Of a stretch of DNA of 64,000 nt, positions 3,841 to 34,192 are shown in pieces. The stretch is from Archangium primigenium. GTDB lineage: Bacteria > Myxococcota > Myxococcia > Myxococcales > Myxococcaceae. A program made the translations under genes and the position numbers. The notes below the pieces were generated by a model. That model was not told where the DNA came from. It worked only from the letters and a program-made list of their open reading frames with translations, and ran no database searches. Each line of letters starts with the position of its first letter. Within the stretch, counting starts at the first letter, position 1. The stretch spans positions 5,642,001 through 5,706,000 of the forward strand of contig NZ_JADWYI010000001.1 of assembly GCF_016904885.1 (NCBI RefSeq), read 5' to 3'.

Positions 3841-5778
3841 CTAGAAGAAGCCGCCGATGAAGTCGGACACCATGGAGACGCCGGCGCCCACCTGGCTGAC
3901 GATGGGGATGTTGGTGGCCGAGGCGATGGAGCCCAGCGCGGTGATGCCGCTGGTGATCTTCGTGCCCAGGCTGGCGTTGGGGTCGCGCAGGTTCTTCACG
4001 AAGGTGGCCGAGTCCACGATGGCCATGCCCACGTTGGCGCCCGGCACGAAGCGGGCCGCGGACTTGGCGGCCGTGCGCAGGCCGGAGCGGGCCGCGGCCT
4101 CGCCCACGCTCTCGGCGGCGCGCGCGGCCATGCGGGCCGGCGCGGAGTGGGTGACGGCCTGGGCGGCACGGCCCGCCGCGCCCGCCACGCGCGCGCTCAC
4201 CGCCGGCGCCACGCGCTGGGCCACGTTGCCCACGGTGTTCAACGCGCCGCGCACGCCGGGGATGGCCTCGAACACGCCGCGGCCGGCCTGGACGGCGCTC
4301 TTGGTGGAGTCGATCGCCTTGGAGATGTCCGCCGGGTTGAAGCCGCGCACGGCCTTGCCGATGTCACCCAGGGCGCCGCCCACGGTGCTGGCCGTGCTGC
4401 GCACGTTGCGGCCGAAGTCCACCAGCGTGTTCACCGCGCCGCCCAGGCCACGGGTGTTCTGCCGGAGGGTCTGCAGGCCCCGCGCCACCGGCGTCTGGGC
4501 CGCGCGGGTGAGCAGGCGGCTCGCGCCGTCCTTCACGCGGTCCAGGCCCAGGCGGTTGGCCACGTTGCCCGCCGTGGTGGCGGCGCGCTGGAACGTCTGG
4601 CCCACGCGGGCGGCCGCCCGGGGGAACGTCTTGGAGAAGTCCTGGCCGATGGCGCGCACGGCGTCGCGCGCCTCGCGGCCCGCGGTGACCACGTCCCCGA
4701 CGGAGCGCGCGGCGTTGTAGCCGGAGTTGAGCGCGCTGCCCACCGACTCCAGGCTGGGGTTGCGGATGGCCTCGCGGACATCGCGCATCGCGGTGCCGGC
4801 GTTGGTGGCCACGTCGCGCACCTTCTCGCCCAGGCCGAGCACCTTCTCGGCGTTGCCCAGGCTCCGGGCGGCAAATCCCGCGGTGCGCCGGAACGCTTGT
4901 GCGGCGGGGTTCTGGGTGACGCGCGTGGCAAGTCGCTGGGCGGTGTCCGCCACGCGGGTCAGTCCGGTGCGCTGGGCCACCTGGTTGGCCACGCCCGCGG
5001 CGCGCTGGTACGTCTGACCGAGGCGCTGGGCGGCGCGGGGGAAGGTGCTCTGGAAGTCGTTGCGCAGGGTGCGCGCCGCGTCCCGGACGCCAGCGGCCTT
5101 GGCGACGACCTCGCCGCCCGCGCGCACGGTGTCCGCCACGGAGCGAGCCGCCGTCAGGCCCTGGCCGAGGTCCCGGTTGCGCACGGCGTCGCGCACGTCG
5201 CGCACGGCCGTCCGCGCCTGGGTGGACACCTTCTGGACGCTCTGCTTGAGCTCCTGGACGGGCTTGGCGCGCTCGAGCGCGCGCTGGGCGAGGCCCCCCG
5301 CGCGCGAGAGCGTCTGGGTGACGGGGTTGTCGAGGGCGCGCGTGGCCACCTTGGAGGCGGTCTGCTGCACGCGCTGGGTGGCGACCTGGGCGGCGGCCCT
5401 CGCCACCGGCGCGGCGGCCTGCGTCACGGCGCGAGCGGCCGGGGCGATCCGGCTCGCCTGCTGCCGCGCCACGTTGGCCACGCGGTTGGCGATGCCACCG
5501 AGCACGCCGCCCGCGGAGGCCGCCGCCGCGCGGGGCGCCGGACGGGCCACGGCCTTGGCGGTGGTGCTGGCCACGCGCGCGGCGGTGCGGCCCACGGCCG
5601 CGGCGGTGCGGCCCAGGTTGGCCAGCGGGCGCGGCGCGGCGGCCTTCGGGGTGAAGGTGCTGGCGGCGCGCGCGGCGATGGGGTTGGCGCGCGCGGCGGG
5701 CCGGGGCGGCGGCGGGGGCGGAGGCGGCGGACGGAACAGACGGCGGGTGAGGTTGCGACCGATTCCGAGCAGGGACAT
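3841..5778 (-). CDS. Ala/Arg-rich amphipathic repeat protein, 645 aa
   Basis: Not recognised as a known family. A short basic N-terminus (MSLLGIGRNLTRRLF) with a run of nine prolines is followed by an Ala/Arg/Val-rich body predicted to be almost entirely amphipathic helix. At least three repeats of roughly 130 residues are visible, marked by AVRDVRDAVRN / AMRDVREAIRN, then FPRAAQRLGQTYQRAA / FPRAAARVGQTFQRAA, and NPVTQTL / NPAAQAF / TPVARGL at unit starts. The last 60 residues are different: a Gly/Ala/Ile-rich hydrophobic tail (GMAIVDSATF...GAGVSMVSDFIGGFF). AGGTGG 5 nt before ATG 5778 favours this start over GTG 5787. Upstream on the same strand lies a SUKH-family gene; a terminator follows. 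Possible roles are a structural or DNA-coating protein, a tape-measure-like protein or a polymorphic-toxin carrier; none is proven. Confidence 0.8.
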   Translation of the reverse strand: MSLLGIGRNLTRRLFRPPPPPPPPPRPAARANPIAARAASTFTPKAAAPRPLANLGRTAAAVGRTAARVASTTAKAVARPAPRAAAASAGGVLGGIANRVANVARQQASRIAPAARAVTQAAAPVARAAAQVATQRVQQTASKVATRALDNPVTQTLSRAGGLAQRALERAKPVQELKQSVQKVSTQARTAVRDVRDAVRNRDLGQGLTAARSVADTVRAGGEVVAKAAGVRDAARTLRNDFQSTFPRAAQRLGQTYQRAAGVANQVAQRTGLTRVADTAQRLATRVTQNPAAQAFRRTAGFAARSLGNAEKVLGLGEKVRDVATNAGTAMRDVREAIRNPSLESVGSALNSGYNAARSVGDVVTAGREARDAVRAIGQDFSKTFPRAAARVGQTFQRAATTAGNVANRLGLDRVKDGASRLLTRAAQTPVARGLQTLRQNTRGLGGAVNTLVDFGRNVRSTASTVGGALGDIGKAVRGFNPADISKAIDSTKSAVQAGRGVFEAIPGVRGALNTVGNVAQRVAPAVSARVAGAAGRAAQAVTHSAPARMAARAAESVGEAAARSGLRTAAKSAARFVPGANVGMAIVDSATFVKNLRDPNASLGTKITSGITALGSIASATNIPIVSQVGAGVSMVSDFIGGFF

Positions 5779-26193: not shown

Positions 26194-29100
26194 GTGAGAG
26201 TCCTTCAGCCCACCGTCCCCTCGCCCTACAAGCCCCGCTTTCACGTCCGGATCGTCACGGCCGCCTCGCTCTTCGACGGCCATGACGCGGCCATCAACGT
26301 CATGCGCCGCCTCATGCAGGCCTCGGGCGCGGAGATCATCCACCTGGGCCACAACCGCTCGGTGGCGGAGATCGTCGACTGCGCCATCCAGGAGGACGCG
26401 CAGGGCATCGCCATCACGTCCTACCAGGGCGGCCACGTCGAGTTCTTCAAGTACATGATCGATCTGCTGCGCGAGCGCGGCGCGAACATCAAGGTGTTCG
26501 GCGGCGGCGGCGGCACCATCCTCCCCTCGGAGATCGAGGAGCTGCACCGCTACGGGGTCAGCCGCATCTATTCCCCGGACGACGGCCGGGCCATGGGCCT
26601 GCAGGGGATGATCGACGATCTCATCGCCCAGTGTGACTTCGAGAAGCGCTCGGAGGACTTCGCGCCCTTCATGGGCACGTCCGCGCCGCGCGAGTCCTCG
26701 CGCCTCGCCTCGCTCATCACCATCGCGGAGAACTTCGCCCCGGTGGGCGAGCAGCTGCGCGCGGCGCTCGCCCGCGCGGACGTGCAGGGCCCCCGGGTGC
26801 CCGTGCTCGGCATCACCGGCACCGGCGGCGCGGGCAAGTCGAGCCTCGTGGACGAGCTGGTGCGGCGCTTCCTCGCGGACTTCCCGGACAAGACGCTCGC
26901 GGTGCTGTCCGTGGATCCGTCCAAGCGCAAGTCCGGCGGCGCGCTGCTGGGCGATCGCATCCGCATGAACGCCATCCACCACCCCAACGTGTACATGCGC
27001 TCCATGGCCACGCGGCAGAGCAACCTCGCCCTGTCCAAGCACGTGGGTGACTCGATCGAGATCTGCAAGGCCGCGGGGTTCGATCTCATCGTGGTGGAGA
27101 CGTCGGGCATCGGCCAGTCGGACACGGAGATCACCGAGCACTCGGACGTGTCGCTCTACGTGATGACGGCCGAGTACGGCGCGGCGACCCAGCTCGAGAA
27201 GATCGACATGCTCGACTTCGCGGACGTCATCGCCATCAACAAGTTCGACAAGCGCGGCTCGCTGGACGCGCTGCGCGACGTGCGCAAGCAGTGGAAGCGC
27301 AACCACAACGCCTTCTCCACGCCGGACGACGCCCTGCCCGTCCACGGCACCATCGCCTCGCAGTTCAACGACCCGGGCATGAACCAGCTCTACCGGGCGC
27401 TCATCGACGCCATCGCGAAGAAGACGGGCGCGCCGCTCACGTCCGGCTTCGCGCTCACCCCGGGCATGAGCGAGAAGAAGTGGATCATCCCCCCGGACCG
27501 CACGCGCTACCTCGCGGAGATCGTCGAGACGTGCGAGGGCTATGATCGCTCGGTGCGCGCCCAGGCGGCGATCGCGCGGCGCATGTACCAGCTGCACGGC
27601 ACCATCGAGGCCCTGCGCGCCAACGTGGGCAAGAAGCGCCTGGAGATCGTCGAGCCCAAGGACACCTCGGGCGTGGTGCACGTCACCGAGCGCGTGGAGG
27701 GCGAGCCGGCCTACCTGAGCGAGCTGGTGGAGCTCTACCGCGACCTGGAGTCGCGCCTGCACCCGGACTGCCGGCGGCTGCTCGCGGAGTGGCCGGCGAC
27801 CAAGCGGCGCTACGCGGCGAGCAAGTACCAGTTCCAGGTGCGCGACAAGGTGATCGAGCTGGACCTGTACACCGAGACGCTCTCGCACCTGCGCGTGCCG
27901 AAGATCGCCCTGCCCCGCTACGAGGACTGGGGCGACATCCTCACGTGGCTCCTGCGCGAGAACGCCCCGGGCGCCTTCCCCTTCACCGCGGGTGTCTTCC
28001 CGCTCAAGCGCGAGAACGAGGACCCGGCGCGCATGTTCGCCGGCGAGGGCGGTCCCGAGCGCACCAACAAGCGCTTCCACTACGTGTCGCGCGGCATGCC
28101 GGCCAAGCGCCTGTCCACGGCGTTCGACTCGGTGACGCTCTACGGCGAGGATCCGGATCCCCGGCCGGACATCTACGGCAAGGTGGGCAACTCGGGCGTG
28201 TCGATCGCCAGCGTGGACGACGCCAAGAAGCTCTACTCGGGCTTCGACCTGGCGGACCCGTCCACCTCCGTGTCGATGACCATCAACGGCCCGGCGCCCA
28301 TGCTGCTCGGCTTCTTCCTCAACGCCGCGGTGGATCAGCAGTGCGAGAAGTGGATCCGCGCCCAAGGCCAGGTGGAAGCGGTCGAGAAGAAGATCGACGC
28401 CCTCTACCAGGAGAAGGGCGTGCCCCGGCCGCGCTACCAGGGCGAGCTGCCCGCGGGCAATGACGGCCTGGGCCTGCTGCTGCTCGGCGTGTCCGGCGAC
28501 GAGGTGCTGCCGCGGGACGTGTACGAGCGCATCCGCGCGAGCACGCTCCAGGCGGTGCGCGGCACGGTGCAGGCGGACATCCTCAAGGAGGATCAGGCGC
28601 AGAACACGTGCATCTTCTCGACGGAGTTCGCCCTGCGGATGATGGGCGACATCCAGCAGCACTTCATCGACAAGAAGGTGCGCAACTTCTACTCGGTGTC
28701 CATCTCCGGCTACCACATCGCCGAGGCGGGGGCGAACCCCATCTCCCAGCTGGCCTTCACGCTGGCCAACGGCTTCACCTTCGTCGAGTACTACCTGTCG
28801 CGGGGGATGAACATCGACGACTTCGCGCCCAACCTGTCGTTCTTCTTCTCCAACGGCATGGACCCCGAGTACACGGTGCTCGGCCGCGTGGCGCGCCGCA
28901 TCTGGGCCAAGGCGATGCGGGACAAGTACGGCGGCAATGACCGCTCGCAGAAGCTCAAGTACCACATCCAGACGTCCGGTCGGAGCCTGCACGCGCAGGA
29001 GATCGCCTTCAACGACATCCGCACCACGCTGCAGGCCCTGCTCGCGCTCAACGACAACTGCAACTCGCTGCACACCAACGCCTACGACGAGGCCATCACC

Positions 29101-29658
29101 ACGCCCACCGAGGAGAGCGTGCGGCGCGCGCTGGCCATCCAGCTCGTCATCAACAAGGAGTTCGGCCTCAGCAAGAACGAGAACCCGAACCAGGGCTCCT
29201 TCGTGGTGGAGGAGCTGACGGACCTGGTGGAGGCGGCGGTGCTCGCGGAGTTCCGCTCCATCTCGGACCGCGGCGGCGTGCTCGGGGCGATGGAGCGCAT
29301 GTACCAGCGCTCGAAGATCCAAGAGGAGTCGCTGTACTACGAGACGCTCAAGCACGACGGCTCGCTGCCCATCATCGGCGTGAACACCTTCCTGGATCCC
29401 AAGGGCTCGCCCACCATCACCCCGCCCGAGGTCATCCGCGCCACCCAGGAGGAGAAGGACTACGCCATCGCGTCGCGCGACGCCTTCTGGAAGCGCAACG
29501 CCCAGGTGGCGCCCCAGACGCTGGAGGCCGTGCGCCGCGCGGCGCTCGACAACGGCAACGTCTTCGCCGCGCTGATGGAGGCCTGCAAGGTGTGCACGCT
29601 CGGGCAGCTGTCGCGCGCCCTGTACGAGGTGGGCGGCCAGTACCGGCGCAACATGTAG
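26194..29658 (+). CDS. icmF: Fused isobutyryl-CoA mutase (IcmF)
   Basis: Protein of 1154 residues that isomerises isobutyryl-CoA and n-butyryl-CoA with adenosylcobalamin. Order of parts: B12 domain ([16 protein letters not shown], histidine 30 in the DxH motif), a MeaB-like G domain with P-loop GTGGAGKSS near residue 208 and NKFDKRGS, then the substrate TIM barrel. Where MCM has Arg the sequence reads [11 protein letters not shown], so Gln replaces the carboxylate-binding Arg, consistent with ICM specificity. It begins 77 bp after meaB with GTG behind AGGTGG, so it may be co-transcribed. The role fits branched-chain acyl-CoA metabolism, which matters in organisms with iso-fatty acids. Confidence 0.95.
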
Positions 29659-29670
29659 AGCGGATTTGAC

Positions 29671-29694
29671 GGGCCCTCGTCCGAGCGAGGGTCC
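29671..29694. terminator. Hairpin after icmF
   Basis: A 9-bp stem with one G:T pair (29671-29679 with 29686-29694, 6-nt loop) lies 13 bp past the icmF stop. No T-run follows on either strand, so it is a weak terminator or an mRNA-end stabiliser. Confidence 0.4.
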
Positions 29695-29695
29695 G

Positions 29696-30083
29696 TCAGT
29701 AGCTCGAGATGTCGACCTCCTCTAGGAAGGCGCGCTTCACGGCGACCTTCTCCCTCTTCGAGGAGATTGTGACGTCCTTGTCCTTCTTCTCGTCGTAGCG
29801 GAGCTTCTCGGTGATCTTGAGCCCCGTGAGCAGATTGGTGCTCACCTTCTTGAGCTCATCGTGCCCGTGCAGGTGGATCAGTAGAGCATGCTCGCGGCCC
29901 CCGCGAAGCGCAGCGTGTCGTCCATGTTCAGGTCGCCCTGAATCGTCGAGCATCCGACTCGAGGGGATGAAGTCCTTGGGAATTATCCTAGTCAGGACCC
30001 ATTCCCTGGACTCCGGAAACACGGATGCGGTGACGTATTCAACAGAAGCGAATTCCAGGTCACACTTGCAACCGCTCTAAGTC
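29696..30083 (-). pseudogene. Remnant of a lower-GC coding region with frame shifts
   Basis: The minus strand holds good-looking protein segments that do not lie in one frame. One frame reads ...CKCDLEFASVEYVTASV..., then IIPKDFIPSSRM, and later HGHDELKKVSTNLLTGLK through to EEVDISSY and a stop. Between 29880 and about 29965 the more natural reading is the neighbouring frame, STIQGDLNMDDTLRFAG followed by AASMLY and a stop. An in-frame TAG lies at the upstream end. Two compensating indels, or decay, would explain this. There is no signal for a start codon, and the family is not recognised. It sits at the edge of a lower-GC island. Confidence 0.5.
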
Positions 30084-30322
30084 CTTGACTAACCTCAGCT
30101 GCCTTCAAATCCATCGTGGAATCGACCAGAGGGGGGGCAAATAAGCCATCCGCACAAGAACGTGGCGCCAGTCAATCTTGGGGGCCGTGGCCGAGTAGTG
30201 AGTGAGTTGCAGCGGCACGTCATCTTGCTTCGATACGATACGGTCGGACTAAACGGCCTCCTTTGGCCAGAAATCATGGGTAACAGCGACTCGCTAACGT
30301 GGCTCACTAGAAGGAACGTTCC
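30084..30322. other. Non-coding stretch upstream of the caspase-like gene, with a palindrome at the start codon
   Basis: No convincing gene. It is less GC-rich than the core genome. GGAACGTTCC, a perfect 10-bp palindrome at 30313-30322, touches the ATG at 30323 and contains the AAGGA ribosome-binding site, so a bound repressor or hairpin could control translation. A promoter is expected here but no strong -35/-10 pair was found. Confidence 0.5.
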
Positions 30323-31063
30323 ATGAAAAATGCAGAGGAAGGTTGCGTCATCCTGTACGGCCGTGGTGCGGAATTGGGTGACTTTGGGGTTTTTGCTCAG
30401 CACTTGGCCAAGTCCCTTGAGACAACGTTTCCGCGAGAGCGGATGTTGGTTCAGTCCATCGAACGAAAGAAAGACTTCTTCGATTTCTTCAGCAAGACAG
30501 TGAAAGGTAAATTCAAAATCAAGCAGTTGCACGTATTCTCACATGCGTATGGGGCCGCGTTGTCGCTCGGCTACCATGATCCGGACATTGGGCGGCATAG
30601 GGTCGCCGTTGCAGCAGAATACGACGAAAAAAAGAACAGGATTCCCATGGAGAAGGTGTTGGCGACAGAAGTCGGTACCATTTTCACCGACGACCTGTTG
30701 ACCCAACTCTTGTCCGTCAAGCAGACCGTCCGAAACACATTCGCGAGCAAGGGCACATCTATCAAGCTCTGGGGCTGCAACGCTGGAGTGGCAAACTGGG
30801 TCTACTCAGACAGCGAGGGCACCTATTACTGGCGTGCCTTGAACACCAAGAATACGCCTAAGCCGAGCATCGCCCAAGGAATCGCTACGTTCTTCAACGT
30901 TGAGACTTACGGCGCGTTAAGCGGATCGCATGTTGAGGTGAAAGTTGGTGGGAGATGGATTACGTCGGATGTCTACAAATTAAAGCATGGCAAATACCCG
31001 CCTCCCAGCATTCAAACCAGGCTTCATCCAGACAAGGGTGACTATGTCAAGTTCAAGCCGTGA
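30323..31063 (+). CDS. Putative caspase-like (DUF4347/CHAT-like) protein, 246 aa
   Basis: No firm family match. It opens MKNAEEGCVILYGRGAELGD with no signal peptide. Two motifs stand out: HVFSHAYGAALSLGY (His74) and SIKLWGCNAGVANW (Cys152), followed by IAQGIATFFNVETYGALSGSHV. A histidine after a hydrophobic strand in an SHxxG context, then a GCN cysteine after a second strand, then a small-residue strand ending in GS, is the layout of DUF4347/caspase-fold cysteine peptidases. Base composition and codon use are unlike the surrounding genes (many AAG/GAA/AAA and TTC/TTT), suggesting transfer. The next gene overlaps its end by 20 nt. Catalysis is inferred only from the pattern. Confidence 0.65.
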   Translation: MKNAEEGCVILYGRGAELGDFGVFAQHLAKSLETTFPRERMLVQSIERKKDFFDFFSKTVKGKFKIKQLHVFSHAYGAALSLGYHDPDIGRHRVAVAAEYDEKKNRIPMEKVLATEVGTIFTDDLLTQLLSVKQTVRNTFASKGTSIKLWGCNAGVANWVYSDSEGTYYWRALNTKNTPKPSIAQGIATFFNVETYGALSGSHVEVKVGGRWITSDVYKLKHGKYPPPSIQTRLHPDKGDYVKFKP

Positions 31064-31466
31064 TTGGCGGTTGTTGTGTTTGGCATTGAGCCTGTGTGGT
31101 TCTCTGGCTTGGTCGGATGCGAAGCATGAAACGCGCCGGGATGTAACCTGCTTTTCGCTCAGGGGAACCACCTATCTCACGTCCAAGATGGACATCCGTG
31201 CTCCTGGAGTAGAGATTGTTGCGGTTCATGAGAGCAATCCAGAAAAGCAGGAGAAGGTTGTTTCGGATGCCCGAGGGCGCTTCAAGCTGTCATGTTTGAA
31301 GAAGGGGCGGTATGAGTTTCGAGTCCAGAAGAAGCTGACTCGGTCGGATGCCCAAAAGCTGCCTGCCCACTTGGCGATGGAAAAAGGCAGGGTTGTGCGG
31401 TCTGTGCTTGATTACGTCGTGGAAGAAAGTTCAAGTTTCAGCTTCGGGTTGATCAGCGATCCGTGA
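31044..31466 (+). CDS. Exported small protein with carboxypeptidase-regulatory-like domain
   Basis: Protein of 140 residues. A signal peptide (MSSSSRDWRLLCLALSLCGSLAWSDA) is followed by a single beta-sandwich like carboxypeptidase regulatory/CnaB domains: VTCFSLRGTTYLTSKMDIRA, PGVEIVAVHESNPEKQEKVVSDARGRFKLSCLKKGRYEFRVQ. The C-terminal tail ends SFSFGLISDP. The ATG lies inside the end of the previous gene (20-nt overlap), with AAGGGTG upstream. The tight overlap of a cytosolic enzyme-like gene and an exported partner resembles effector/periplasmic-immunity pairs, which is inference. GC is lower than in the genome around it. Confidence 0.7.
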   Translation: MSSSSRDWRLLCLALSLCGSLAWSDAKHETRRDVTCFSLRGTTYLTSKMDIRAPGVEIVAVHESNPEKQEKVVSDARGRFKLSCLKKGRYEFRVQKKLTRSDAQKLPAHLAMEKGRVVRSVLDYVVEESSSFSFGLISDP

Positions 31467-31605
31467 ACGCCGAGTGTGCGCTGGGTGGGTTGGATACGCT
31501 GACGTGGCGCTCCCGCCCTTTGTGTGCTCGCTCCTTCCACCGTGATATCTCCAGGAGAAGACCGGGGATCGCTCCTGGGCGGGCTGAACGCCCCTGGAAA
31601 CAAGA

Positions 31606-31657
31606 CGGTTCACCGACGCCTGGGGCCGGTTCACCGCGCGGGGGGAGCGCTTCACGG
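31606..31657 (+). repeat. Three direct repeats at 21-bp spacing (LytTR-box-like)
   Basis: CGGTTCACCG at 31606-31615 and at 31627-31636 are identical, and CGCTTCACGG at 31648-31657 matches 8 of 10. The starts are exactly 21 bp apart, two helical turns. LytTR regulators such as AgrA and VirR bind similar direct repeats (core near CNGTTNAC) separated by about 12 bp, which gives a 21-bp period. A LytTR protein is encoded 750 bp downstream. The repeats lie about 30 bp upstream of a -10-like hexamer for the lipoprotein gene. Confidence 0.7.
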
Positions 31658-31688
31658 AACACCGGCCGACGGGTCGCGAGGGCCTCGG

Positions 31689-31694
31689 TAGGGT
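31689..31694 (+). promoter_or_regulatory. Candidate -10 element of the lipoprotein gene
   Basis: TAGGGT, matching the TA...T core of a -10 hexamer, sits 32 bp past the third repeat. No -35 consensus is present, as expected for an activator-dependent promoter. The start codon at 31755 would give a leader of about 55 nt. Confidence 0.3.
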
Positions 31695-31754
31695 GCCGTT
31701 CGTGGCCGGGACACCCCCGGTCCGTGGCACCCTTCCCCTCTCCAGGAGCCCTCC

Positions 31755-32333
31755 ATGTTCTCGTCCGCCAAGACCCTCGTCCTCCCCATGCTCGCGCTCG
31801 CCCTGGGGGCCTGTGGGGGTGAAGCCCCCGAGGTGTCGGAGTCCGCCGCCGAGCCCACCGCCACCACGGCGCAGGGCCTCACCTCGGTGACGATCGGTCG
31901 CTACAACATCCCCTTCTACGTTCCGCCCCGGGTCGCGGGGGACGCCGACTTCGCCGGCCACGGCCCCGACATGGACATCGACTTCGAGATGGAGCTGCGC
32001 AACGGCGACACCGAGCTGTGGGTGGGCATGTACGTCTTCGGGCAGGAGGTGGGCGGCACCACCCGCGTCGAGGGCGGCGTGTGGCACAAGGTCTTCACCG
32101 CCCCCTCCGCCATCGTGTCCGTGGCGCCCCAGCCCGTGGTCGCCTCGGGGCCGGAGTTCCACCACGGCTTCAGGAACTACGGCCATGCCACCAAGACGTA
32201 TCAGTTCCCCCAGCTCAACCCCGCCAGCCGTCTGGTGTGGCAGATCTCCTGCGTGGCGGACACGGACGGCAACGAGGCCGGCTCCAAGACGGGCTGCAGC
32301 TCCATCCTCCACGAGATGACCCTCACCTTCTGA
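31755..32333 (+). CDS. Lipoprotein, 192 aa
   Basis: Lipoprotein signal MFSSAKTLVLPMLALALGAC, Glu/Ala/Thr spacer, then a beta-rich domain (VTIGRYNIPFYVPPRVAG, DIDFEMELRNGDTELWVGMYVFGQE, LVWQISCVADTDGNEAGSKTGC). Two cysteines in the second half could pair. No family recognised. It is preceded by three 21-bp-spaced repeats and followed by a LytTR regulator gene, so regulated surface expression is likely. Confidence 0.8.
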   Translation: MFSSAKTLVLPMLALALGACGGEAPEVSESAAEPTATTAQGLTSVTIGRYNIPFYVPPRVAGDADFAGHGPDMDIDFEMELRNGDTELWVGMYVFGQEVGGTTRVEGGVWHKVFTAPSAIVSVAPQPVVASGPEFHHGFRNYGHATKTYQFPQLNPASRLVWQISCVADTDGNEAGSKTGCSSILHEMTLTF

Positions 32334-32401
32334 CGCCCCGTCACGCCGCCATCACGCGGGCCCCATACACCCCTCCCTCGCACCTGCTCGCGGAGGCGTA
32401 C

Positions 32402-32803
32402 GTGGACGTGACATCGAGGATTCCGACACCCCCTGGCCTTGCCTGGACGGACACCGCTCCGCCGCCCCGGCCCCTGGAGCGCCTGGTCATCAAGGAGATT
32501 GGCCGGGTGCTCTTCGTGCCGGTGAGCGAGGTGGACTGGCTGGAGGCCGAGGACGACTACGTCCAGGTGCACGCGGGCCGGAGCACCTACCTGCTGCGCC
32601 AGTCGCTCCGGGTGCTGGAGAGCCGCCTGGATCCCCACCACTTTGTGCGCATCCACCGCTCCACCATCGTCAACGTGCAGCGCATCCACGAGATGCGGCC
32701 CCTCTTCCATGGCGAGTACCAGGTGCTGCTCCGGGACGGCACGGGCCTCAAGCTCAGCCGGGGCTACCGCGACCGGGCGAGGCACCTGCTGGACATGGCG
32801 TGA
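32402..32803 (+). CDS. LytTR-type DNA-binding regulator without receiver
   Basis: Protein of 133 residues. After about 25 residues of Pro-rich leader comes a LytTR domain: LVIKEIGRVLFVPVSEVDWLEAEDDYVQVH, then YLLRQSLRVLESRLDPHHFVRIHRSTIVNVQRI and GTGLKLSRGYRDRARHLL. The receiver domain of two-component members is absent, so control must come from another protein, from its own level or from a redox/ligand signal. The GTG start has GGAGG 5 nt upstream, and a second GTG two codons later is less favoured. It lies 69 bp after the lipoprotein gene. Confidence 0.9.
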   Translation: MDVTSRIPTPPGLAWTDTAPPPRPLERLVIKEIGRVLFVPVSEVDWLEAEDDYVQVHAGRSTYLLRQSLRVLESRLDPHHFVRIHRSTIVNVQRIHEMRPLFHGEYQVLLRDGTGLKLSRGYRDRARHLLDMA

Positions 32804-32848
32804 GCGGGAGTGCTGGCGTGTCGTGGCGCGCGGCAGCAAGCTTCGGGC

Positions 32849-34192
32849 ATGAACCCGTCCCGCGCCCCCCGTCCTCCCGGTCCCCGCGCCCTGCCGATCA
32901 TCGGCCACATGCTCGACTACACGCGCGACCCCCTGGGCTTCATCGAGTCCTGCCCCAGGGACCATGGCGACGTGGTGTGCGTGAACATGCTGGGCAACCG
33001 CGTCTACGTGCTCCAGCGCCCCGAGCACATCGAGCACGTCCTGGTCACCCGCCACCGCAAGTACGCCAAGGACGCCTTCCAGCGCGAGGTGATGGGCGGC
33101 CGGCTGCTCGGCCGGGGCCTGCTCACCAACGACGGTGAGCCCTGGCTGCGCCAGCGGCGGCTCATGCAGCCCGCCTTCCACCGCCAGCGCCTGGCCGCCT
33201 ATGGGCGCATCATGACCACGCACGCGCGGCGCCAGGTCGGCCTCTGGCGCGACGGCGAGGTGCGTGACGTCAACGCGGACATGATGGAGCTGACGCTCGC
33301 CATCGTCATCCAGAGCCTGTTCGGCCTGTCCCTGGACGACGGGGCCGACACCGTGGGTCCCGCGCTGGCGCGGATCATGGAGCACTTCGCCCGGCTGCAG
33401 GCGCTCATCTTCCCCGAGTGGCTGCCCACCCCGGAGAACCTCGGCTACCGGGCGGCGATCGATCAACTGGACACGCTGGTGGCGGGCCTCATCCGGCGGC
33501 GGCGCGAGGCGGGCGGCGAGACGGACGACCTGCTGTCCATGTTGCTCAACGCCCAGGACGAGAACGGCCAGGGCATGAGCGATCAGCAGCTGCGCGACGA
33601 GGTGTTGACGCTGATGCTCGCCGGACACGAGACGACGTCCATCAACCTGGCCTTCTGCTTCTACCTGCTGGCGCGCCACCCGGAGGCCGAGGCCGCGCTG
33701 CACGCGGAGCTGGAATCGGTGCTCGGGGGACGGGCGCCGGCGCTGGAGGACCTGGCCGCCCTGCCCTTCACCGAGGCCGTGGTGAAGGAGGCCCTGCGGC
33801 TCTACCCGCCCGCGTGGTCCATCGGCCGCGAGGCGCTGGAGGCGGACGAGCTGGACGGCTGGCCCATCGCCAAGGGCTCGGTGATGATGATGAACCCGTG
33901 GACGGTGCACCGCGATGCGCGCCTGTACGAGGAGCCGCTCGCCTTCCGGCCCCAGCGCTGGCGCGACGGCCTGGAGCAGCGCCTGCCGCGCTTCGCGTGG
34001 TTCCCCTTCGGCGGCGGCCCCCGGCTGTGCATCGGCATGAGCTTCGCGCTGATGGAGGCCCGGCTGGTGCTGGCCACGCTCGCCCAGCGCTTCCGCTTCG
34101 AGCGCGCGCCGGACGACGCGGTGGAGCTGCTGCCCTCCATCACCCTGCGGCCCCGCCACGGGGTGAAGGTCCGGGTGCGCGCCCGGGAGTGA
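32849..34192 (+). CDS. Cytochrome P450
   Basis: Soluble bacterial P450 of 447 residues that hydroxylates or otherwise oxidises a lipophilic substrate with electrons from ferredoxin. The I-helix oxygen-activation motif is AGHETTS, the K-helix is EALR, and the haem-binding loop is FGGGPRLCIG with Cys394 as the ligand. It opens with PRPPGPRALPIIGHMLDYTRDPLGF as in the CYP51/CYP102-like bacterial groups. No ferredoxin or reductase gene is nearby, so redox partners are unlinked. Downstream, a convergent BNR-propeller gene begins 5 bp after its stop. Confidence 0.96.
   Translation: MNPSRAPRPPGPRALPIIGHMLDYTRDPLGFIESCPRDHGDVVCVNMLGNRVYVLQRPEHIEHVLVTRHRKYAKDAFQREVMGGRLLGRGLLTNDGEPWLRQRRLMQPAFHRQRLAAYGRIMTTHARRQVGLWRDGEVRDVNADMMELTLAIVIQSLFGLSLDDGADTVGPALARIMEHFARLQALIFPEWLPTPENLGYRAAIDQLDTLVAGLIRRRREAGGETDDLLSMLLNAQDENGQGMSDQQLRDEVLTLMLAGHETTSINLAFCFYLLARHPEAEAALHAELESVLGGRAPALEDLAALPFTEAVVKEALRLYPPAWSIGREALEADELDGWPIAKGSVMMMNPWTVHRDARLYEEPLAFRPQRWRDGLEQRLPRFAWFPFGGGPRLCIGMSFALMEARLVLATLAQRFRFERAPDDAVELLPSITLRPRHGVKVRVRARE

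Follow-up and report, generated by a model that had tools for sequence, protein, structure and literature searches.

LytTR domains that read three direct repeats are already known from RcoM and CoxC; in the accessible part of one account (PMC11347149) the repeats of RcoM1 are given as TTCNNGCA, with 12-13 bp between them, and those of CoxC are 18-21 bp apart. A second group, the LRS (HdrRM, BrsRM and their relatives), has LytTR regulators that lack a receiver and positively autoregulate their own operon, with repeats that lie above the -35 by 4-11 bp in S. mutans and in other species usually by 10 bp (PMC6193735, in the part available). For myxobacteria, two surveys (PMC7694542 and PMC4603909), in the portions accessible, only count LytTR proteins, and in the literature searched, mostly outside subscription journals, we found no description of a triple-repeat, self-regulated lipoprotein-LytTR arrangement.

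The locus considered here lies in a stretch of 64,000 nucleotides from Archangium primigenium (contig 1, 5642001-5706000), hereafter the window; its genome (G000) is 9.49 Mb, and three further genomes of about 12 Mb represent the same genus. Like the operators of RcoM and CoxC, as the accessible account describes them, the window array has three direct repeats that follow one another every two turns of the helix or so, with a period of 21 bp, but those proteins carry CO-sensing domains and have a different repeat sequence, whereas the window protein has just a short N-terminal tail besides its LytTR domain; furthermore, CoxC represses, while the window system is read here as an activator. As in the LRS, again on the part of the source available, the regulator has no receiver, the direct repeats lie just above the -35 position and positive autoregulation is proposed. 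However, the LRS have two repeats and an adjacent gene for a transmembrane inhibitor, while the window has three repeats and an exported lipoprotein; no multi-pass membrane protein lies next to the window LytTR gene, which is flanked by the lipoprotein gene and a cytochrome P450 gene. A further comparison is with two-component LytTR regulators, the close homologues in G010, G016, G017, G031, G082, G083 and G086 being receiver-LytTR proteins with a histidine-kinase motif encoded upstream, but the window has neither receiver nor kinase. Precedents thus exist both for a triple LytTR operator (RcoM, CoxC) and for autoregulation by a LytTR protein without receiver (LRS), but the arrangement in the window appears, on the published text available, to differ from either.

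The repeat array and its promoter

Our reading, which we hold with considerable confidence, is that 31606-31694 is an activator-dependent promoter at which the window LytTR protein would bind the triple repeat and activate the lipoprotein-LytTR unit, and hence itself. The component features are collected in Table 1.

Table 1 Features of the putative LytTR-responsive promoter and of the two genes downstream (window coordinates).
Feature	Position	Strand	Basis
Repeat 1, CGGTTCACCG; putative distal LytTR half-site	31606..31615	+	sequence
Repeat 2, CGGTTCACCG	31627..31636	+	sequence
Repeat 3, CGCTTCACGG; promoter-proximal	31648..31657	+	sequence
-10-like hexamer, TAGGGT	31689..31694	+	TA begins 32 nt beyond repeat 3, a distance shared by most other sites
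AGGAG, RBS-like, lipoprotein gene	31744..31748	+	sequence
Lipoprotein gene, 192 aa, lipobox LALGAC	31755..32333	+	ORF; no Pfam family; beta-rich model
GGAGG, RBS-like, LytTR gene	32392..32396	+	sequence
LytTR gene, GTG start, 133 aa, with FVRIHRS and without receiver	32402..32803	+	ORF, Pfam

The sequence-only reading from which this work started had described three repeats at an exact 21-bp period, upstream of a lipoprotein gene and some 750 bp from a receiver-less LytTR gene. All of this holds: the repeats begin at 31606, 31627 and 31648, and 745 bp separate the end of repeat 3 from the LytTR start codon. It is reasonable to ask whether the repeats might be a chance or compositional pattern, particularly as the lone 10-mer is about as frequent as expected (10 matches with at most one mismatch, against 8.4). 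The periodic arrangement is another matter, since TTCACNG repeated at 21 bp (at most one mismatch) occurs twice in the window against 0.19 expected, both occurrences being steps of the array itself, and an equally similar triple with this period arose in just 2 of 200 first-order Markov windows (1%). Conservation across genera at a fixed distance from the -10, described below, contradicts a chance origin as well, and we regard its probability as negligible. The real window does contain a second 21-bp-period triple (5557-5628, with the match at 5557-5564), which is GC-rich and unlike the LytTR repeats in sequence.

The end coordinate chosen in the sequence-only reading, 31694, is the last base of the -10-like hexamer, an element that reading did not mention. 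From the hexamer, transcription is predicted to start near 31701. Counted from there, the repeats would be centred at about -90, -69 and -48, and the last of them would end about 8 nt above a -35 position set by 17-bp spacing, so that the direct repeats lie just upstream of the operon's own predicted promoter, as in the LRS. The spacing between repeat 3 and the -10 recurs in other sites (their identification is described in the following section): an offset of exactly 32 nt from repeat 3 to TA is seen in 8 of the 11 training sites, in 10 of 14 later matches to the full triple, and in all five Corallococcus sites. The count of 14 drops L155, L161, L167 and L169, with which it becomes 11 of 18 at offset 32, and includes L162, which has no -10 and is omitted from the -35 count. 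A conserved -35, in contrast, was not found among the 29 sites with TA at offset 30-34, the best match averaging 2.17 of 6 positions against 2.14 for random sequence.

This anatomy bears on the direction of regulation. CoxC, whose operator also consists of three direct repeats, is a repressor (PMC11347149, in the part available), and the window LytTR protein might likewise bind the repeats and repress the lipoprotein gene. However, the CoxC operator overlaps the -35, while the window array stops short of that position, and the missing conserved -35 suits an activator, so that we consider repression improbable. Activators, moreover, offer precedents both for triple LytTR operators and for repeats placed just above the -35 (the sources on RcoM and CoxC and on the LRS, in the parts available). 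Under the activator reading, the LytTR protein would bind the three repeats, which, at a spacing of two helical turns, all lie on the same DNA face; with the array ending just upstream of the would-be -35, the bound protein would bring RNA polymerase to a -10 promoter that has no -35 of its own, and the promoter would transcribe the lipoprotein gene and then, as the next gene in the unit, the LytTR gene, giving positive autoregulation.

Two further observations concern the leader. The window has a perfect 8-bp inverted repeat (31690-31697, AGGGTGCC, and 31726-31733, GGCACCCT) that shares bases with the -10 and within whose span the predicted start falls; this inverted repeat is absent in the same-genus genome G003. 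The idea that a leader hairpin acts as an RNA switch was rejected, as the folding is ordinary and no better than that of shuffled sequences (z -0.52).

The two genes and their neighbourhood

The regulator is a near-complete LytTR domain (PF04397; score 90.4 bits, family cut-off 22.6; 2-97 of 98 positions covered). It contains FVRIHRS, which fits the FhRhHRS motif of LytTR proteins as quoted in the accessible part of PMC4227749, and in which F, R, I, H, R and S are invariant in 10 aligned homologues. No match to a receiver domain, and no receiver motif, was seen in the window protein or in its counterpart G003-C66. Its named relatives come from Archangium, Hyalangium and Corallococcus; its matches among solved structures comprise just 3d6w and a weak unrelated match, AgrA not being among them.

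The window lipoprotein has a single N-terminal hydrophobic stretch and no Pfam family at E<=0.01. A first structural model was poor (mean pLDDT 52.4) and a second, beta-rich one reached 72.5; no PDB match to the model was obtained at E<=0.001, the best VIA-align Z being 3.8, though the protein may still have a known fold. When G000 is compared with G003, the LytTR domain has a dN/dS of about 0.21 and the lipoprotein one of about 0.14, from which we conclude that both are maintained. The LytTR gene is the next gene after that of the lipoprotein, on the same strand and after a gap of 69 bp, and no terminator-like site was found in 31300-33000, hence none between the two; the loop is therefore probably autoregulatory, a point the sequence-only reading had missed.

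Some features of the surroundings may be noted separately. A cytochrome P450 gene (32849-34192) follows on the same strand, 45 bp past the LytTR stop codon; it is absent from the G003 loci, but in this genome the unit may include it as a third gene. The stretch 29659-31466, of low GC (0.51-0.57, against 0.71 for the window), holds a 246-aa ORF without a Pfam family and a weak CarboxypepD_reg-like ORF, and may be acquired DNA. Before it, at 26194-29658, B12-binding, MeaB-like GTPase and methylmalonyl-CoA-mutase-type domains are fused in one protein, which resembles IcmF.

The promoter element among relatives

Absence of the repeats upstream of orthologous lipoprotein genes had been named at the outset as grounds for abandoning the proposal, but the array is kept in G003, G010, G061 and G062 and persists in diverged form in Corallococcus. 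Among 145 genomes of the order the lipoprotein gave 16 matches in 15 genomes, and the architecture is found upstream of all 16, diverged in Corallococcus; the exception is in G068, where a shortened piece of the lipoprotein gene adjoins the LytTR gene and most of the array has been lost. G003 encodes, in the same order and with the repeats as in the window, the lipoprotein at 84% identity and, at 77%, a LytTR protein that lacks a receiver. Four neighbouring window genes were not found in the G003 loci, so that what recurs as one block is the array with the lipoprotein and LytTR genes. In G061 and G062 the array, the lipoprotein and a receiver-LytTR regulator follow one another. The pairing is not obligatory, however, since the G010 lipoprotein gene, which has the array, has no LytTR gene within the 6 kb examined, and several Corallococcus copies are likewise not adjacent to one; in several genomes of that genus the gene adjoining LytTR is truncated or divergent from the lipoprotein.

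The Corallococcus promoters deserve separate mention. Upstream of 11 lipoprotein matches in g26 (Corallococcus), belonging to nine whole and two truncated genes, the 21-bp frame is kept in degenerate form, and TA lies exactly 32 nt past repeat 3 in every case. Six of the nine promoters of whole genes were outside the scoring matrix, and these score 14.7-37.8; in 300 random window stretches the 95th percentile is -13.8 (and the maximum, 64.8, is the window's own site). Five promoter stretches of the g26 genomes agree letter for letter with those of named Corallococcus records.

A pattern scan of 96 genomes of the family gave matches in 38, many of them inside repeats or coding-like sequence, and also copies with inter-repeat letters in common. 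Two models were built. R1 describes the repeats only, the -10 being outside it, and was trained on 11 sites from six genomes. The window site served as seed and the G010 site was reached via the lipoprotein, the others coming from the pattern scan; the consensus of the 11 is CGGTTCACnGGCnCnAnAGGCCGGTTCACGGCACCGGnGGAGCGCCTCACGG. R2 describes the repeats together with the -10 and was trained on 27 sites. Sites at E<=1e-6 were found by R1 in 11 of the 96 genomes (matches above E 0.004 were unused, apart from that in G030, which was examined and then set aside), while R2 gave 47 sites at E<=1e-8 in 23 genomes, and sites in 29 genomes at E<=1e-3.

As to what the element controls, 39 of the 47 R2 sites lie upstream of a gene with a signal peptide or lipobox (ORFs judged by eye), many of these being mutually orthologous. 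Of the other eight, two lie before ORFs that have no signal (G062 3054288, G081 C11) and two have no clear gene (G069, G071); three are copies that are broken or truncated (G073 C17, G074 C779, G076 C207), and one is unclear (G083 4110363). Of ten targets scanned against Pfam, five had a family, and these include a matrixin-type peptidase, an FG-GAP protein and an astacin. The ten include L155, whose site is weak and not one of the 47. In several genomes of the genus Corallococcus a second exported-protein family (GYTSVPDGYVLL..) lies downstream of the element (L246, L247, L251, L252, L253, L255). In relatives the element lies mostly upstream of exported-protein genes, together with kinase-linked or orphan LytTR response regulators.

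Within the window genome itself the picture is much simpler. The sequence-only reading had suggested a genome search at 21-bp spacing to define a regulon, but such scans return one strong site: R1 gives 1.2e-12 for it and 0.095 for the next, and the two-repeat pattern with no mismatches finds the window site alone. With up to two mismatches that pattern has 113 matches against 90 in a reversed control. A multi-gene regulon in this genome is therefore rejected at the sensitivity of the scans.

The link between element and regulator can be examined through co-occurrence, taking as reference the 28 of 96 family genomes that have a LytTR protein of at least 60% identity. All 15 lipoprotein genomes are among these 28, as are all 11 R1 genomes at E<=1e-6 (2.4e-7, ignoring shared ancestry). 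At E<=1e-3, 13 of 14 R1 genomes have a close LytTR, the exception being G001. For R2 the figures are 25 of 29 genomes at E<=1e-3 (8.7e-16) and 22 of 23 at E<=1e-8, both of which ignore shared ancestry and are partly circular, because the training sites came from 18 genomes that were later scored and some were found via the lipoprotein. Three genomes with a clade LytTR have no element at E<=1e-3 (G011, G060, G101).

Co-location points the same way, the element lying near the clade LytTR gene in 11 genomes: G000, G003, G061, G062, G016 and G086 by R1, with G032, G070, G074, G076 and G081 added by R2. In G016 and G086 it lies directly downstream of the LytTR stop codon and faces genes for an astacin and a Cys-rich exported peptide, not the lipoprotein gene. 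If some other DNA-binding protein read the array, with the LytTR gene a mere neighbour, one might expect the element without a close LytTR, and at E<=1e-3 it does so occur in G001, G009, G028 and G069. Yet co-occurrence and co-location with the LytTR clade, the different target genes faced in G016 and G086, and the period itself (direct repeats at 21 bp are the known LytTR pattern, as the sequence-only reading had also pointed out) all argue against this, and we judge it very improbable. One of the exceptions is suggestive of the opposite: in G001 the promoter of a 135-aa exported protein can be aligned with its counterparts in G002 and G003, starting in the spacer that precedes repeat 3 and continuing through the leader, and has kept repeat 3 and the -10 and lost repeats 1 and 2. 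It remains a single suggestive case, because at this promoter G003, too, no longer has a good repeat 1 (it is eroded), although its LytTR is kept.

The anatomy of the promoter, its conservation, and its co-occurrence and co-location with the LytTR clade are computational observations. Together with the -10 lacking a -35 they lend support to the original proposal that the LytTR protein activates the lipoprotein gene; from them we infer binding by LytTR, activation rather than repression, and cotranscription.

Regulator ancestry and significance

The relatives differ in how much of a two-component system surrounds the LytTR domain. A PHFLFN kinase motif lies about 1 kb upstream of it in G010, G016, G017, G031, G082, G083, G086b, G009, G087, G095 and G101, while none was seen in the 1.5-4 kb examined in G002, G003b, G061, G062, G086a, G011, G060 and G096, or in the five Corallococcus loci checked over the same range (G032, G070, G071, G076, G078). 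In the orphan receivers the acidic pocket is mostly altered (VDPE, VDSE, VDGE), VDEE being kept in G086a, and the G061 receiver has Gly at the phospho-Asp position; in G000 and G003-C66 the receiver is absent altogether. On these sequences the relatives form a series from kinase-linked regulator, through orphan with altered receiver, to protein without receiver. In a tree of the LytTR domain G000 pairs with G003-C66 (100/99) and a truncated G060 copy with G061 (98/86), deeper forks being weak; because of these two pairings receiver-less copies would have arisen at least twice, although the G060 copy may be a fragment.

It is possible, and we put it forward tentatively, that a two-component system decayed stepwise, the kinase being lost and the receiver altered and then lost, apparently twice, into a positive-feedback switch in which a receiver-less LytTR protein has its own lipoprotein operon as its only strong target in the genome. 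Such a switch may be a bistable, sensor-less control of a surface lipoprotein, or may take its input from the state of lipoprotein export.

For the family as a whole, the analysis would provide a precise and testable promoter code for a myxobacterial LytTR family, and would tie that family to exported proteins, metalloproteases included. The passage from a kinase-linked regulator to a bare DNA-binding domain, with the operator kept, would be a natural example of how a regulator can be cut off from its input and yet retain the DNA site it reads.
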